Source of the DNA: Bacteroidales bacterium | GTDB lineage: Bacteria > Bacteroidota > Bacteroidia > Bacteroidales > DTU049 | Assembly (NCBI GenBank): GCA_016937255.1 | Contig: JAFGWG010000147.1 | Coordinates: 1 to 32,213, forward strand | DNA length: 32,213 nt | Direction: 5' to 3' | Part shown: piece after piece, positions 23,977 to 32,028 of the stretch | Layout: each line of letters begins with the position of its first letter | Position numbering within the stretch: the first letter of the stretch is position 1 | Translations under genes and position numbers: made by a program | The notes under the pieces: generated by a model | What the model was told of the DNA's origin: nothing | Databases searched by the model: none | What the model saw: the letters and a program-made list of their open reading frames with translations, nothing else

Positions 23977-24453
23977 CTATTTGCTTTCCAATTTATCTTT
24001 ATTAAGGATGGCTTTTGCTTTATTGATCTCTGCATTATTACCATGGGCAATTACCTGAAATCCTTTTTCTACAACATGTTCACGGTATTTTAAAACCGCC
24101 CGGTTTCTGATGACGATGATAGCAATTAGAGTAATGGTGCCCCCACCAACAAGACCAAGGGAAAAGCCAGCCAATGCACCCAGAATTGGGCCTATTCCGT
24201 AGAGAAATCCCAATCCGGGAATGGTAAATAATTCAATCCCGGAGAGTAGTCCCAATATAGGTCCTACAATAGCACCTACGATTGCCGGTATATTCTTTTT
24301 CCATCTATTATACTTGACATGCATGAGATCATCTATAATTACCGACTTCCCGATAAGAGAAATCTGCTGAATGGGATATCCCGTGCTTTTTAGTTTTTCA
24401 ACAGCTTCGAGTGCTTTTTCATGGGTGCTATAAACGCCTACAATAGTATTCAT
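23977..24453 (-). CDS. GSP17M-like general stress protein with glycine-rich membrane segment
   Basis: A 158-residue protein. The first ~45 residues (IVGVYSTHEKALEAVEKLKSTGYPIQQISLIGK) fit the YflT/GSP17M general-stress domain, a ferredoxin-like fold also found in YtxH-type stress proteins. Residues ~60-115 are two glycine-rich hydrophobic segments (IVGAIVGPILGLLSGIEL ... GIGPILGALAGFSLGLVGGG) typical of glycine-zipper membrane insertion. The C-terminal ~40 residues are soluble and charged. Function is unknown in the family; stress induction is known for relatives. Its promoter carries the bipartite activator motif shared with three other genes here. Confidence 0.75.
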   Translation of the reverse strand: MNTIVGVYSTHEKALEAVEKLKSTGYPIQQISLIGKSVIIDDLMHVKYNRWKKNIPAIVGAIVGPILGLLSGIELFTIPGLGFLYGIGPILGALAGFSLGLVGGGTITLIAIIVIRNRAVLKYREHVVEKGFQVIAHGNNAEINKAKAILNKDKLESK

Positions 24454-24541: not shown

Positions 24542-24613
24542 CAAAATTAGCTTAGATGGAAGCCATTTGCGTTATACGATTCTGAATTTATCTTACATCA
24601 TTCACACATTATT
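24542..24613 (-). promoter_or_regulatory. Activator-type promoter of the GSP17M-like gene (shared bipartite motif, copy 1)
   Basis: In gene direction: TGTGAATGATGTAA ending at 24593, 15 nt, GTATAA (24577-24572), 22 nt, -7 box TAATTTTG (24549-24542, perfect TAnnTTTG). The leader to the ATG is ~85 nt and contains a small hairpin (24490-24508, CCTGTAA/TTACAGG). The rest of the gap up to 24884 shows no gene, repeat or clear terminator. Confidence 0.7.
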
Positions 24614-26212: not shown

Positions 26213-26278
26213 CAAAGGTGAATATCTTTTGTGTGATTTGTATTATACTATTTATGCTATAAGTTACATCATTCACAC
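26213..26278 (-). promoter_or_regulatory. Activator-type promoter of the interrupted barrel gene (shared bipartite motif, copy 2)
   Basis: In gene direction: GTGTGAATGATGTAA ending at 26264, 15 nt, GTATAA (26248-26243), 22 nt, -7-like box CACCTTTG (26220-26213; first base deviates from TAnnTTTG). The spacings equal those of copies 1, 3 and 4. The ATG follows ~42 nt further on. Confidence 0.7.
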
Positions 26279-26658: not shown

Positions 26659-26724
26659 TAAATTTAGGTATCCTTCTTCGGGAAAATGTTACACTACTTT
26701 CAGATTAACTTACATCATTCACAC
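26659..26724 (-). promoter_or_regulatory. Activator-type promoter of the 53-residue protein gene (shared bipartite motif, copy 3)
   Basis: In gene direction: GTGTGAATGATGTAA ending at 26710, 15 nt, GTGTAA (26694-26689), 22 nt, -7-like box TAAATTTA (26666-26659; last base deviates). The ATG lies 36 nt beyond the box. Confidence 0.7.
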
Positions 26725-26810: not shown

Positions 26811-27554
26811 TTATTGTACTACAAAAGTATTTCCTTCCATGGTAACTGATCCGTTTCTAGCCAATGCTCTGCCTTCTAATTCTGCCCCAGTGTCGAAGGT
26901 GATGGATTCTAAAGCGATTATTGTTCCTTTAAAAGAGGTGGTCGTTCCAAATGATGCTGAACTGCCTACTTGCCAGAAAATATTAGATGCTTGTGCTTCT
27001 CCGCTAAGTATTACTTGTCGCCCAGGAGTAGTTGTAAGGGTGGATGCAATTTGTATAATGAATATTGCACTTGAATCTCCCAATGCATCGAAAGTAAGAT
27101 CTCCTGAAGAAATAGCCAATGACGAAGTTGATTTATAAAGTCCCGGAGTCAATGTTAATCCTCCAATATTGCCCGATAATGTTACAATATCGGTTGCGAC
27201 TCTGGCTGCTAAATCATTGTATGCGGCAATAATATCAACTTTTGCCTGATTTGCAGTGGCGTCATTAATGTGAAGTGTACCGTTTAAAATACCGGGAGGG
27301 AAACCTCCAATAGATGTACCGGGACTTAAGCCTAAATCGCCCGTGATAATGGTTGCGCCGGTATTGGTAACAGATGATCCGGCAATGATAGCAAAATTAT
27401 TGGCTGACCCCAATGCTACATCTGCTTGCACTGTTGTTTGAACGGGTATTACAATAGGATCTGTACTTACATCTGTATCGTCATCTTTTTTACATCCGAC
27501 AATAAGAATGATCGCGAGAATACTAAAGAAACTTAATAGTTTTATTTTTTTCAT
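26811..27554 (-). CDS. DUF3494 ice-binding-like surface lipoprotein
   Basis: 247 residues from MKKIKLLSFFS; an upstream in-frame ATG at 27614 lies within the promoter and is rejected. Lipobox LIVGC with Cys21, followed by KKDDD, an acidic stretch resembling the Bacteroidetes lipoprotein export signal, so surface exposure is likely. Residues ~55-247 form a DUF3494 (PF11999) beta-solenoid: FAIIAGSSVTNTGATIITGDLGLSPG, then the Ala-rich helix NQAKVDIIAAYNDLAARV, then GNIGGLTLTPGLYKS, SSAIFIIQIAS, NIFWQVGSSASFGTTTSFKG and ELEGRALARNGSVTM. The family includes true ice-binding proteins but many members act as adhesins; ice binding is not shown here. It is transcribed alone under the shared activator motif. 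Confidence 0.88.
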   Translation of the reverse strand: MKKIKLLSFFSILAIILIVGCKKDDDTDVSTDPIVIPVQTTVQADVALGSANNFAIIAGSSVTNTGATIITGDLGLSPGTSIGGFPPGILNGTLHINDATANQAKVDIIAAYNDLAARVATDIVTLSGNIGGLTLTPGLYKSTSSLAISSGDLTFDALGDSSAIFIIQIASTLTTTPGRQVILSGEAQASNIFWQVGSSASFGTTTSFKGTIIALESITFDTGAELEGRALARNGSVTMEGNTFVVQ

Positions 27555-27585
27555 GTTTTGTTTTTTAATGATCGCTCTTGGCAAA

Positions 27586-27595
27586 TCACATGTGA
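27586..27595. promoter_or_regulatory. Palindrome in the DUF3494 leader
   Basis: TCACATGTGA is a perfect 10-bp palindrome lying between the predicted transcript start and the ATG at 27554. It could be a repressor site; a palindrome this short can occur by chance. Confidence 0.25.
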
Positions 27596-27611
27596 ATGAA
27601 TTTTCACAAAA

Positions 27612-27677
27612 CAAAGGTGCGCCATATCTTAATGAAATGTATTACACTATATTATAAATATCTTACATGATTCACAT
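27612..27677 (-). promoter_or_regulatory. Activator-type promoter of the DUF3494 gene (shared bipartite motif, copy 4)
   Basis: In gene direction: ATGTGAATCATGTAA ending at 27663, 15 nt, GTGTAA (27647-27642), 22 nt, -7-like box CACCTTTG (27619-27612), identical to the box of copy 2. The first element differs from the others by one internal base and one flanking base. Confidence 0.7.
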
Positions 27678-27723
27678 ATATGGAAGGGAAGTAGTCGTTT
27701 AGCAAACTTAGCATTAAAGCGAT

Positions 27724-27820
27724 TTTCAAAAATAACTATGAGATAAAACAATTGATTATCTCTTCCGCCCAAACTGAGATTTATTCTTTTTTCTAGTCGT
27801 AAAAAAACTCTTGACATTTT
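27724..27820 (-). repeat. Direct repeat copy 1, with relic of a helicase gene 3' end
   Basis: This ~97-nt stretch is about 90% identical to 29711-29807 (around nine differences by eye). Its right part (27763-27809) resembles the 3' end of the DEAD-box helicase gene at 30775 (CGCCCAAACTGAG..TTATTCTT), i.e. codons for the KNKPQFGRKR-type tail. The relic has frameshifts and stops, so it is not coding. It abuts the 3' end of the beta-helix gene. Confidence 0.7.
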
Positions 27821-27825
27821 GTCAA
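27801..27825 (-). terminator. Terminator of the beta-helix gene, built across the repeat junction
   Basis: TTGACA and TGTCAA (27811-27816, 27820-27825) form a 6-bp stem with a 3-nt loop. On the minus strand it is followed by GAG and seven T. The TGA stop (27824-27822) lies inside the stem. Confidence 0.6.
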
Positions 27826-29546
27826 TTTATAATAATAATTTTGTTTGTATAGATGACTTTCTCAGCTTCTGATAGATTAATGAAATATATGCCAGCCGGC
27901 AAATCGCCTCGATGCAGAGTTACAGTATTTCCTGAAATGTCCGTTATTTGCCTGACAAGTTGACCATAATAATTGTAGATAGATAAAATAGCATTTTCAA
28001 AGCATCTGTCTGAATTTATGGTTGTTGTGGTTGAGAATGGGTTAGGATAAATGGTCACTATATCATCGTTATTATGCCCAATAATATCTGTTGAGTGTCC
28101 AGATTCATAAGATCCTATGTCAATTCTTAATGGAATTCCTTGAATGCGTGTATTGTAAGCATAATCAAAATCTCCTACTGGTATTCCAATTGTGTCTGGT
28201 GTGCCTGCATTTACGCATGGACTCGAAAAATGAAGTTGGTAATCTTCATTGTTAATATCCACAAATACTGGGTTTTGTGCTATAGAATTTAAGTCTTGTT
28301 GATAGGTCGCTTGATAATTGGAAAATTGAGCCATGGTATATGAATTAACTGTTGCAGTGCCCCATTTTATATCAATCAAAGTGTCATTTTCTGTTTGATA
28401 CCAAGTATTATAATCTAATGTTAGCGAATCAAGGTCTGAATATCTCAATACATAAAGACCGGCAGATGATGCTTCGTAGAAAATATTGTTTAAAATATAG
28501 AAATTGTGTGTAGCAGCATCAATTTGAAAAAAATTAAGATGTCTGCCTCGCTTTTCGGGGCGTTGATCATGGGCCCAAGTATTGCCAGCATATAGGCAAG
28601 TATTATTGATGAAAAAGATGTTTTGTGTTAAAGAACCAATTGGACGATTCCAATACTCAAATGACCATTCAGCGTTATAAATTAGATTGTTTCTATAAAT
28701 TATATTTGTTTGAGTTGCTATGTTTCCCTCATTTTGATTGGTCATAGCAGCATCATAGATTTCCCATACTTTACATTGCTCTACTAAATGATTAGATGCA
28801 TTAGCCCAGAATTCAATTCCGTTGCCATAGCGCACCCATCCATGCACGGGGTGATTAATTGCACCTCCTCCAATATATGAAATATCGCAAGAACGAATTA
28901 TAATATTATCGGTATTTCCACCTCCAATACCATGGCCGCCACCATATTTTAAAGCGAGGTTTTCATAAATGATGTATGATTTATTTTCCTGATGAATGAT
29001 ATTGTAAGCTAATGCACATTCAATATCATTGTAAAATGTAGCGGGATTGGAAGTACTAAACAAATTTACTTTTTGGTTAATAGTGTCATACCAGTAATCT
29101 CCTTGCTGCAATAAATTAGTTTCAGACCATTTTTTTACTCCAAATGAACTTGAAGAATCAAAAATTATATTGCCTATATCAAGTGGGATTGTGAATACTG
29201 TTGACCATATATTTCCACTAGGATTCTCCCAGTATGTTGTGTCGCTAATATTCCATGATCCCATAAACAAAGGCTTGTTGCCTGTGCCATAAGCTCCATA
29301 ATATAGATGATCATTAATGTCTCCGCTTTGTGGAATTAGTTGGCCACGCCAAATATCATTTCTTTTGAATAGCACTGAATCTCCAGGGGCATAAGAGAAG
29401 ATGTTGACTTTATCAAGCGTTGCCCAGGGAGAAAGAGTTGATGTGCCGTTATTGGAATCATTACCCGTGTTGGAAATATAATATGTAGTTGCTTCTAAGG
29501 TATTATTAGCAAGCATAATAATGAAAGCAAGGAAAAAAGTTCTCAT
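27822..29546 (-). CDS. Secreted right-handed beta-helix protein with T9SS type A sorting domain
   Basis: 574 residues from MRTFFLAFIIMLANNTLEA, a signal peptide; an upstream in-frame ATG would add 13 polar residues. The mature protein starts with the motif TTYYISNTGNDSNNGTS..PWATLDKVN, typical of secreted pectate-lyase-like and parallel beta-helix proteins. Residues ~170-420 carry repeated beta-helix turns (NIIIRSCDISYIGGGAI, HLVEQCKVWEIYDAAM, TNIIYRNNLIYNAEWS, FYILNNIFYEASSAG). The last ~80 residues (IYPNPFSTTTTINS ... GIYFINLSEAEKV) are a T9SS type A domain. A polysaccharide-degrading or binding role is plausible, but no catalytic site was identified. It is flanked by direct repeats containing helicase relics. 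Confidence 0.88.
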   Translation of the reverse strand: MRTFFLAFIIMLANNTLEATTYYISNTGNDSNNGTSTLSPWATLDKVNIFSYAPGDSVLFKRNDIWRGQLIPQSGDINDHLYYGAYGTGNKPLFMGSWNISDTTYWENPSGNIWSTVFTIPLDIGNIIFDSSSSFGVKKWSETNLLQQGDYWYDTINQKVNLFSTSNPATFYNDIECALAYNIIHQENKSYIIYENLALKYGGGHGIGGGNTDNIIIRSCDISYIGGGAINHPVHGWVRYGNGIEFWANASNHLVEQCKVWEIYDAAMTNQNEGNIATQTNIIYRNNLIYNAEWSFEYWNRPIGSLTQNIFFINNTCLYAGNTWAHDQRPEKRGRHLNFFQIDAATHNFYILNNIFYEASSAGLYVLRYSDLDSLTLDYNTWYQTENDTLIDIKWGTATVNSYTMAQFSNYQATYQQDLNSIAQNPVFVDINNEDYQLHFSSPCVNAGTPDTIGIPVGDFDYAYNTRIQGIPLRIDIGSYESGHSTDIIGHNNDDIVTIYPNPFSTTTTINSDRCFENAILSIYNYYGQLVRQITDISGNTVTLHRGDLPAGIYFINLSEAEKVIYTNKIIIIN

Positions 29547-29710
29547 TTTGTAGATTTTAGTTTTCTGCTCGTTTGAGTTTCGCAATCTTTTAAATTGACC
29601 TTTCTACTGCACTTACATAATTCAATGGTTGAAATTATGCTCTGTAGATGTTTGTGTTTTACTATTTGCTAAGGTCCCAACGTTAAACATACTTAACCCA
29701 AAGATACGAA

Positions 29711-29838
29711 TTTCAAAATAACTGTGAGATAAAGCAATAGATTATCTTCTACGCCCAAACTGAGATTTATTCTTTTTTCTATTCGTAAAAAAAACTCTTG
29801 ACATTTTTTATTTTTCTCCTTTTCAAATTCCTGCTTCT
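29711..29838 (-). pseudogene. Relic of a helicase gene 3' end (direct repeat copy 2)
   Basis: 29745-29838 aligns with the last ~30 codons of the DEAD-box helicase gene (30775-30869), roughly 80-85% by eye. On the minus strand it reads EFEKEKNKKCQEFF, then a 2-nt frameshift, then QFGRRR and a stop, against QFEKEKNKKRQEFF...QFGRKR in the intact gene. Similarity stops abruptly at 29838. 29711-29807 is the direct repeat of 27724-27820. The rest of the 29547-30082 gap shows only the hairpins at 29880-29937. Confidence 0.7.
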
Positions 29839-29879
29839 GTCAACAAATTCATTTGCCAAAAAGCAAGATTATTATAAAA

Positions 29880-29937
29880 AATATCCCCGCAGTCGCTTGG
29901 CTCATACGGGGATATTAATATTGGACCCTGCGGGGTT
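29880..29937. repeat. Two mutually exclusive GC-rich hairpins
   Basis: AATATCCCCG (29880-29889) pairs perfectly with CGGGGATATT (29907-29916). The overlapping CCCCGCAG (29885-29892) can instead pair with CTGCGGGG (29928-29935). The GC-rich arms stand out in an AT-rich gap. Neither arm is followed by a T-run, so a simple terminator is unlikely. It could be an RNA switch-like structure or part of a decayed mobile element. Confidence 0.5.
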
Positions 29938-30082
29938 GATGCTCTAAACCATGCAATAATGCTCATGATTAAGAAACTTTTTATGGAATGAATGGCATAA
30001 TGCTAAATACCAATCATATATAATGCATTCAATTTAAGGTAAAGTGTTAATCAATCCGCAGAAAGGGTTTGCAAGTTAAACT

Positions 30083-30490
30083 CTACATCTTTTCAAAAGT
30101 CAGCAATTCCGTTCCGTTGTCACTATCATCACTAAGCTCAATTATACTTTTGCTCTGGCTGTCGATAATCCAATCATCAGAAATCTCAACCAAAGATGTT
30201 GGTGAGGAAAAAGTGATATAGAATTTCTCCTTGCTGTCGTCGTTGCCAGTGCTCCATGTGCCGCTATAGCTAGATGTGCCTGATGCCACGATTACATTTC
30301 CGTTATCGTTGAATGTAAACGACATATCCGCGTAGGATGAGGTTTCATCGTGATCCTTGTCATAATAATATGAGATTTTCCAGTTGCCGTCAACAATATT
30401 ATTGGATACTTTTACTGAATCGTCTTTCTTGCAGGAAGCCATTATGAAGGCTGCTGAAATAATTACGGTGAAAAAAATATTGTGTTTCAT
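30083..30490 (-). CDS. Small lipocalin-like lipoprotein
   Basis: A 135-residue lipoprotein. Signal MKHNIFFTVIISAAFIMASC with lipid Cys20, followed by KKDDS, resembling the Bacteroidetes surface-export signal. The mature part is a small beta-barrel of the lipocalin-like type found in many Bacteroidetes lipoproteins: IVDGNWKISYYYDKD, then MSFTFNDNGNVIVASG, SGTWSTGNDD, KEKFYITF and SIIELSDDSDNGTELLTFEKM. The GxW near the first strand and the GTW in the middle are the usual landmarks. Very acidic. No ligand can be predicted. The upstream gap to 30774 is AT-rich without a recognisable gene. Confidence 0.75.
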   Translation of the reverse strand: MKHNIFFTVIISAAFIMASCKKDDSVKVSNNIVDGNWKISYYYDKDHDETSSYADMSFTFNDNGNVIVASGTSSYSGTWSTGNDDSKEKFYITFSSPTSLVEISDDWIIDSQSKSIIELSDDSDNGTELLTFEKM

Positions 30491-30748
30491 TTTTTCTTGT
30501 AAAGATATAATATTAATATGCTAAATATATTTATTCATGATAAAAATCAGTATGATAATATGTAATAAAATGTAAAATATATTTTTTTATCAAAATAGTT
30601 AAATTTTTAAGGTTGTAATGATCCTGATAAAATTCAAGAATGCTGTTTTATCTAATTCCGTATTTTGGAAGCTGGTGCATTTTTGAGGATAGATTCGGGT
30701 AAACACAAAATCAACACAATAAACGTAATGGGTAAATAAACGGAAAGT

Positions 30749-30776
30749 AAAAAAAAGATTCAATGCCAAATAATCT
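30749..30776 (-). terminator. Weak terminator after the DEAD-box helicase gene
   Basis: On the minus strand AGATT pairs with AATCT across an 11-nt loop and runs into a T-stretch. The stem is only 5 bp and overlaps the stop codon. Confidence 0.3.
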
Positions 30777-32028
30777 ACCTCTTCCGCCCAAACTGAGGTT
30801 TATTCTTCTTTCTGGCCGCAAAAAACTCCTGCCTTTTTTTATTTTTCTCCTTTTCAAACTGCTGCTTCTCTTTGGAAGTCATAGGTTTCTCTGTTTGAGG
30901 GAAAGGATTCTTTTCGACGACTTCTATTTTTTGTTTGATTAGTTTTTCAATGTCTTTTATGTAGGCATTTTCTTCGGGTTCACACATGGAAATGGAAATT
31001 CCTTCGTCACCGGCACGACCTGCACGACCGATTCTGTGTACATAAGTTTCGGCAATATTTGGAATGTCGTAATTGATTACATAATGCAGTTTGTCTATAT
31101 CGATGCCTCTGGCTGCAATATCGGTTGCTACTAGAACCCTGATCTCGCCATCTTTAAAGTCTTGCAGAGCTTTTTGTCGCCTGTTTTGGGCTTTGTCACC
31201 ATGAATGGCTGATGCTTTTATTCTTTCTTTGGCTAATATCCGGGTAATTCTGTCGGCACCGTGCTTGGTTCTTGAAAACAATAGAACCTGATCAATGCGT
31301 TTGTCTTCGAGAATATACAGCAGCAAATCTTTTTTGGTGGCTTTGTTTGTGTAATATAAGTATTGTTTCAGTGTTTCGGCAGTAGATGAAACCGGGCTCA
31401 CTTCAACTTTCTTTGGGTTTTTCAGAATTGTTTTTGAAAGTCCAACAATATTATCGGGCATGGTGGCCGAAAAGAACAATGATTGGCGCTTTTGCGGTAA
31501 TTTGGCAATGATCTTCTTTATATCGTGAATAAATCCCATGTCGAGCATGCGATCGGCTTCATCCAGTACAAAATATTCAATGTCTTTTAGCTTTATAAAA
31601 CCCTGATCCATAAGATCGAGAAGCCTGCCGGGAGTGGCTACCAGAATATCAACGCCTCTTTTAACAGCTGCGGTTTGGGAATTTTGATTCACTCCACCAA
31701 AAATGACTGTGTTTTTAAGTCCTGTGTATCTGCCGTAGGTAGAAAAACTCTCTCCAATTTGAATGGCCAATTCACGGGTAGGTGTAATAATGAGCGCATT
31801 CATTTTGCGCGGGCTATTGTTTTGCCTGCGATCATTAAATAAATGTTGTAGTATAGGAATGGCAAAGGCTGCGGTTTTTCCGGTGCCGGTTTGCGCACTG
31901 CCCAGTACATCTTGTCGGCTTATTATTAATGGAATCGCTTTTTCCTGTATGGGTGTAGGTATCGAATATTCTTCTTCTTTCAGCGCCCTTAATACAGGCT
32001 CAATAATGTCCAGTTCTTCAAATTGCAT
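30775..32028 (-). CDS. DEAD-box ATP-dependent RNA helicase, RhlE type
   Basis: A 417-residue cytosolic RNA helicase for ribosome assembly or RNA turnover. All core motifs are present: Q motif (YSIPTPIQEKAIP), I AQTGTGKT (45-52), Ia PTREL, Ib TPGRLLDLMD, II VLDEADRMLDMGF, III FFSATMP, IV LLFSRTKHGADRI, V ATDIAARGIDI, VI HRIGRAGRAG. The C-terminal tail after ~residue 375 is short, very basic and glutamine/lysine-rich (FEKEKNKKRQEFFAARKK) as in RhlE proteins, likely for RNA contact. Two decayed copies of this tail region lie downstream, at 29745-29838 and 27763-27809, suggesting a former paralogue. Cold or low-temperature roles are known for some relatives; none is shown here. Confidence 0.93.
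   Translation of the reverse strand: MQFEELDIIEPVLRALKEEEYSIPTPIQEKAIPLIISRQDVLGSAQTGTGKTAAFAIPILQHLFNDRRQNNSPRKMNALIITPTRELAIQIGESFSTYGRYTGLKNTVIFGGVNQNSQTAAVKRGVDILVATPGRLLDLMDQGFIKLKDIEYFVLDEADRMLDMGFIHDIKKIIAKLPQKRQSLFFSATMPDNIVGLSKTILKNPKKVEVSPVSSTAETLKQYLYYTNKATKKDLLLYILEDKRIDQVLLFSRTKHGADRITRILAKERIKASAIHGDKAQNRRQKALQDFKDGEIRVLVATDIAARGIDIDKLHYVINYDIPNIAETYVHRIGRAGRAGDEGISISMCEPEENAYIKDIEKLIKQKIEVVEKNPFPQTEKPMTSKEKQQFEKEKNKKRQEFFAARKKNKPQFGRKR

Follow-up and report, generated by a model that had tools for sequence, protein, structure and literature searches.

How did the degenerate ends of a helicase gene come to lie on either side of a gene for a secreted protein? The question is raised by the contig of a Bacteroidales bacterium analysed here over its full 32,213 nt (the window), in which an intact rhlE-like gene is followed by two relics of such a gene, with a T9SS beta-helix gene between them. 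The initial annotation had read the relics as the remains of a former second helicase copy whose tail was duplicated when the beta-helix gene arrived or was amplified.

Organization of the locus

All of the features concerned lie on the minus strand. The helicase gene (30775..32028) is intact and encodes a DEAD-box protein of 417 aa with Pfam DEAD and Helicase_C domains; its top NCBIfam models were RhlE2, RhlE, and RhlE1, each scoring under its cut-off. We refer to its last ~31 codons (30776-30869) as tail copy C. Downstream follow, in order, a 135-aa ORF (30083..30490), a terminator-like hairpin with 9-bp arms and a T-run that was found by reading the sequence (29875..29915), relic B (29707..29838), the intact beta-helix gene (27822..29546; 574 aa from Met, T9SS beta-helix-type secreted protein), relic A (27720..27820), and a gene for an ice-binding-like protein (26811..27554). 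Relic B preserves ~31 codons from the end of an rhlE-like gene and relic A ~21; both are frameshifted and include the stop codon and a 3' extension. Relic A starts one nucleotide past the stop codon that ends the beta-helix gene. Behind the three tails stand three different genes: the 135-aa ORF after C, the beta-helix gene after B, and the ice-binding-like gene after A.

The 135-aa ORF appeared lipoprotein-like by eye only; it matched no Pfam family and showed a weak NCBIfam resemblance to BSAP-5i immunity (E 3e-5, 24 bits, cut-off 150). The ice-binding-like protein matched Pfam Ice_binding (E 5.7e-62) and NCBIfam IBP_CFB (E 1.6e-36, 126 bits against a cut-off of 400). Both relics lie outside ORFs of at least 100 aa. 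The ORFs of at least 80 aa in 26811-32028 were the genes described above and two ORFs antisense to them, with no recombinase gene seen among them, within or beside the inserts, and the window contained no tRNA or Rfam RNA as an insertion target.

Two kinds of short repeats were observed nearby. The motif GTGAATSATGTAA occurs on the minus strand at 24592-24605, 26263-26276, 26709-26722, and 27662-27675, which makes four of its five occurrences in the 3.85-Mb genome, where a control pattern occurred 0 times. These sites lie ~90-140 nt upstream of the ORF starts at 24453, 26622 (a 53-aa ORF), 26170, and 27554, and in all four a first half, ATGTAAS, is followed, starting exactly 21 nt on, by a second half, GTRTAAY, a direct-repeat arrangement that resembles that of LytTR-type regulators. 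Our guess is that they mark a local envelope-gene regulon. The window's only further match at up to two mismatches (29612-29625, minus strand; 1.06 expected by chance) lies upstream of the beta-helix gene and lacks a clear second half. Separately, the segment 26281-26425 has inverted ends, TTGTGCGGTTT...AAACCGCACAA, with partial matches at four other places in the genome, and is perhaps MITE-like.

Comparison of the three helicase tails

Self-comparison of the window revealed that A and B share 90.196% identity over 102 columns (27720-27820 vs 29707-29807, E 1e-31), B and C 84% over 94 (29745-29838 vs 30780-30869, E 7e-21), and A and C 84.4% over 64 (27757-27820 vs 30776-30838, E 3e-12), all far above chance. 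The ~97-nt direct repeats of about 90% identity that had been described on either side of the beta-helix gene were thus recovered, with coordinates and identity correct to within a few bases, and the matches to C bear out that both contain a decayed helicase 3' end. When the 3.85-Mb genome was searched for the repeat, 40 places were scored at E ≤ 10; three were strong (E ≤ 3e-21), namely A, B, and C, and the fourth-best had an E of 0.02.

The relics contain gene ends only, including the stop codon, and the helicase body is absent. Their 5' ends lie ~30 nt apart within the gene (B at 29838, A at 27820), so that the break points differ; the same pentamer, TTGAC, precedes both as read from the sequence, which could be chance. 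The 160 nt 5' of each relic resembled the helicase at chance level, the score being reached by 366 of 500 shuffles for B and 228 of 500 for A. Past the stop codon, A and B have ~36 nt in common, and A there bears no likeness to C. Over ~120 nt after the stop, the A/B score exceeded every one of 500 shuffles, the C/A score was at chance level (489/500 shuffles reached it), and the C/B score was marginal (18/500). This is the extra sequence that the initial annotation had described as not found beside the intact helicase; for B the contrast with C is marginal. A possible extension of A/B homology into the leader of the gene downstream of each relic was also scored: the global score was reached by 12 of 1000 shuffles and the local scores by 630 and 128 of 1000.

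Measured against C and in its register, 10 positions have changed in relic A (4/0/6 at first, second, and third codon positions; chi-square p 0.06) and 16 in relic B (5/2/9; p 0.10). These counts rest on 63-93 nt and are suggestive only; they weakly suggest that the A/B lineage may have diverged from C while still coding. All ten of the A-vs-C changes are also present in B. The four substitutions that separate A from B within the shared codons all fall on the B side, where A equals C, although the sample is tiny and three of the four lie within four positions. The helicase stop codon is kept in its original register in both relics, and a T-run has lengthened from 6 in C to 7 in A and 8 in B, which shifts the frame in the relics; these lengths could stem from one slip common to A and B and a further one, or from slips that occurred separately. 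The two relics resemble one another more than either resembles C, which places the split between them after their separation from C.

The beta-helix gene between the repeats

The reading frame of the beta-helix gene is open over its full length. Its product begins with a hydrophobic N-terminus that looks signal-peptide-like by eye and ends in a C-terminal sorting domain (Por_Secre_tail, E 5.7e-11, 43 bits, cut-off 27; TIGR04183, 41.2 bits, cut-off 23). Residues 28-123 matched PDB 7v6m (E 1.3e-11) and residues 34-108 matched lacto-N-biosidase 6kqs by sequence (E 1.5e-6); the Pfam search returned no beta-helix family. A structure model built from 5 sequences was of low confidence (mean pLDDT 50.7), and its best fold matches were beta-helix enzymes, GH136 first (E 1.4e-5), with TM-scores of only 0.2. 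The name "beta-helix T9SS gene" is fair on this evidence. The likeness to GH136 lacto-N-biosidases consists of the sequence match to 6kqs and the best fold matches of the low-confidence model, whereas the fold-match identity is 11-14% and the score against NCBIfam LctobiosidLnbX is 33.6 bits against a cut-off of 2500; enzyme activity cannot be deduced.

Because the G+C content of the gene (0.349) is close to that of the window (0.367), composition is silent on its origin. Another contig of the same genome carries a paralogue (42% identity), and homologues were found in four further genomes among the 295 of the order at E ≤ 1e-60. In three loci (L073, L075, L076), homologues of the gene stand among direct repeats of their own, the best pair in each being 143-242 nt long and 80-92% identical, and by coordinates the strongest pairs have one copy at or near the C-terminal end of the gene; it is possible that neighbouring genes there exchange T9SS C-terminal regions. 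Loss of the window's beta-helix gene through recombination between A and B is possible.

Distribution of rhlE and search for comparable tails

The genus of the window is represented by one genome. Among the 11 other genomes of its family, three carried an rhlE match at E ≤ 1e-130, with 58-60% identity; across the order, 72 of 295 genomes had a match at E ≤ 1e-150, one per genome, with six candidates scored per genome. The nearest match among these 295 genomes (81%) belongs to another family. In a 33-row tree (4 rows from the window's family, 29 others), the window's rhlE grouped with a row from another family, and the AU test rejected a single clade for the family (p 8.7e-9). This pattern fits lateral movement of rhlE DNA, as judged from the tree; ancient or hidden paralogy followed by loss could also be its source. 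The window's rhlE type is distributed patchily over the families of the order, as if one type replaces the other.

Comparable tail copies were sought beside helicases in two sets of loci, 32 from the order and family and the best 80 of at least 593 candidates, which may overlap in genomes; none was found at these 112 loci, 73 of which have at least 3 kb downstream. Within the first set (12 of 32 with at least 3 kb downstream), where each locus was compared with its own helicase tail at E ≤ 0.01, seven loci showed further matches of at most 35 nt. The best of these, in L063 (E 9e-6), is an A-rich stretch of lysine codons, those in L062 are likewise A-rich, and those in L039, L044, L045, L050, and L070 had E values of 0.003-0.008; all are unlike the 64-102 nt copies of the window. 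None of the best 80 candidates, 61 of which extend for at least 3 kb downstream, gave a further match at E ≤ 1e-4. When relic B was used as a DNA query against 393 genomes of the order, eight had matches at E ≤ 1e-4, the own genome included: in two of the others (G051 and G064) the match was the rhlE gene itself, and in the other five it fell at sites where the helicase protein gives nothing better than E 0.29.

Comparison of the window's 35 ORFs of at least 90 aa with 95 helicase loci at E ≤ 1e-8 matched only the helicase and an antisense ORF, so there was no synteny to compare. As a yardstick, we applied the filter used for the window's three repeat pairs to 41 stretches of the same genome (571,219 of 3,854,161 bases), which were partly picked by T9SS hits and are not random. 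Thirteen direct-repeat pairs passed, ten of them within ORFs on both sides; the three with a non-coding side were in L184 (two) and L197, and the L197 pair reads as a palindrome. A literature search for rhlE as an insertion hotspot in Bacteroidetes found no papers.

Origin of the relics

The intact helicase end is itself the first of three related tails in a row, each with a different gene behind it, so that displaced versions of one gene end explain the layout at least as well as a decayed second copy. The reading that we place first, tentatively and with somewhat less than even confidence, is repeated insertion by recombination anchored in rhlE, with the previous tail left behind each time. 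The three tails would then represent, one after another, the 3' ends that a single rhlE locus has had. DNA from a relative would bring an rhlE end with a different gene behind it and would join the resident rhlE by homology on the rhlE side, the far side of the insert being closed by an unspecific or single-crossover join. The new end and new gene would occupy the site beside rhlE, while the old tail and its neighbour would move downstream and decay. In a first event the beta-helix gene would have come in, leaving tail A before the ice-binding gene; in a second, the 135-aa ORF would have entered and left tail B before the beta-helix gene.

Several features agree with this route. Repeated one-sided recombination in a conserved gene would leave tails and genes in alternation, with nothing copied but the gene ends, and relics that begin at different codons (~31 from the end in B, ~21 in A) are as expected of unspecific joins. 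The codon-position counts, which weakly suggest that the relics diverged while coding, also speak for it. That the window's rhlE does not fall in one clade with its own family fits lateral arrival of rhlE DNA, although hidden paralogy would produce a similar tree. The inserts measure ~0.9 and ~2.0 kb, the same order as in homology-facilitated illegitimate recombination, for which an average of 1 kb is reported (PMC3240628), and this counts for displacement. Several points count against it: all four A-B substitutions in the shared codons (three of them within four positions) lie on the B side, although A should be the oldest tail, and A is not the more decayed; the shared lengthened T-run is simpler from a single decayed ancestor; the DNA downstream of C is unlike that of A and only marginally like that of B; and an intermediate was seen at none of the 112 helicase loci compared (32 plus the best 80 of at least 593).

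The decayed-copy reading of the initial annotation is a close rival, nearly as good, and we regard it as a real if less probable possibility. It holds that a second rhlE decayed to its tail and that this relic was duplicated, either as the beta-helix gene arrived or in a segmental duplication; entry of a circle bearing the relic and the beta-helix gene by a single crossover is an example. A and B share ten changes relative to C, the lengthened T-run, and ~36 nt past the stop codon, which indicates a common ancestor of A and B already separate from C, and a decayed copy accounts better for the lengthened T-run in both relics and for how recently A and B diverged. Of the proposed second helicase, the rhlE-like tails closely related to the intact gene, with A and B closest to each other, were confirmed, but a complete copy was not: only the last 20-30 codons exist, and no helicase body was found within 160 nt on the 5' side of A or B. 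This reading also requires two different processes for two similar arrangements, and the codon-position counts point weakly to divergence while the sequence was still coding, ahead of its decay.

Direct repeats of a gene 3' end around an insert are the usual mark of site-specific integration, and small elements might have integrated in the rhlE 3' end, restored it, and pushed the old end downstream. Such repeats are present here, as is the TTGAC before both relics (which could be chance), but the relic starts lie ~30 nt apart in the gene, the ORFs of at least 80 aa in 26811-32028 include no visible recombinase, and the 112 other loci (32 plus the best 80 of at least 593) lack tail copies; we therefore judge it improbable. 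An interspersed REP/MITE-type element resembling the helicase tail by chance is more improbable still: such repeats do seem present in the genome, a gene in L197 being flanked by a 75-nt repeat that is a palindrome by eye, but the match to the helicase tail tracks codons up to the stop, and this candidate was rejected on the three strong places in the 3.85-Mb genome, all in the window.

The relics have the appearance of scars left by earlier gene insertions, a minor and mostly unremarkable episode in the history of the genome; the locus records local history and has no evident function. If displacement by rhlE-anchored recombination is true, the order in which genes were gained next to a conserved gene can be read from the tails, and gene-end relics before accessory genes would be a simple signature of one-sided recombination. 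The broader proposition that the rhlE 3' end is a recurrent landing place in this lineage, with alleles travelling between Bacteroidota with the gene behind them and so anchoring the successive gain of surface and secreted genes, we consider unlikely.

Comparison with known systems

Integration into gene 3' ends by tyrosine recombinases leaves a second copy of the 3' end past the inserted DNA. The window shares the duplicated gene end beyond the insert with such integration and differs from it in that no recombinase was seen and the relic starts differ. Homology-facilitated illegitimate recombination (PMC3240628) resembles the proposed route in using homology on one side only, in closing the other side unspecifically, and in inserts of ~1 kb; it usually comes with a deletion, which only an ancestral genome would reveal, and for the window the process is a proposal.

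The nearest published case that we found is that of the orphan immunity-gene arrays of the Vibrio cholerae T6SS, in which new modules displace older ones downstream (PMC5361080). Its authors propose a mechanism similar to homology-facilitated illegitimate recombination, and one step that they describe moves back the 3' end of an older effector (PMC5361080). In the window, by contrast, a housekeeping helicase would be the anchor, and the genes beside it encode unrelated proteins that have no obvious cause to be kept together; if displacement is true, an array of this kind lies outside the toxin-immunity loci where we found such arrays described. The two cases share a constant upstream part, with what in the window would be older pieces following downstream in order: the 3' ends C, B, and A stand in sequence, each with a different gene, as successive displacement would leave them.
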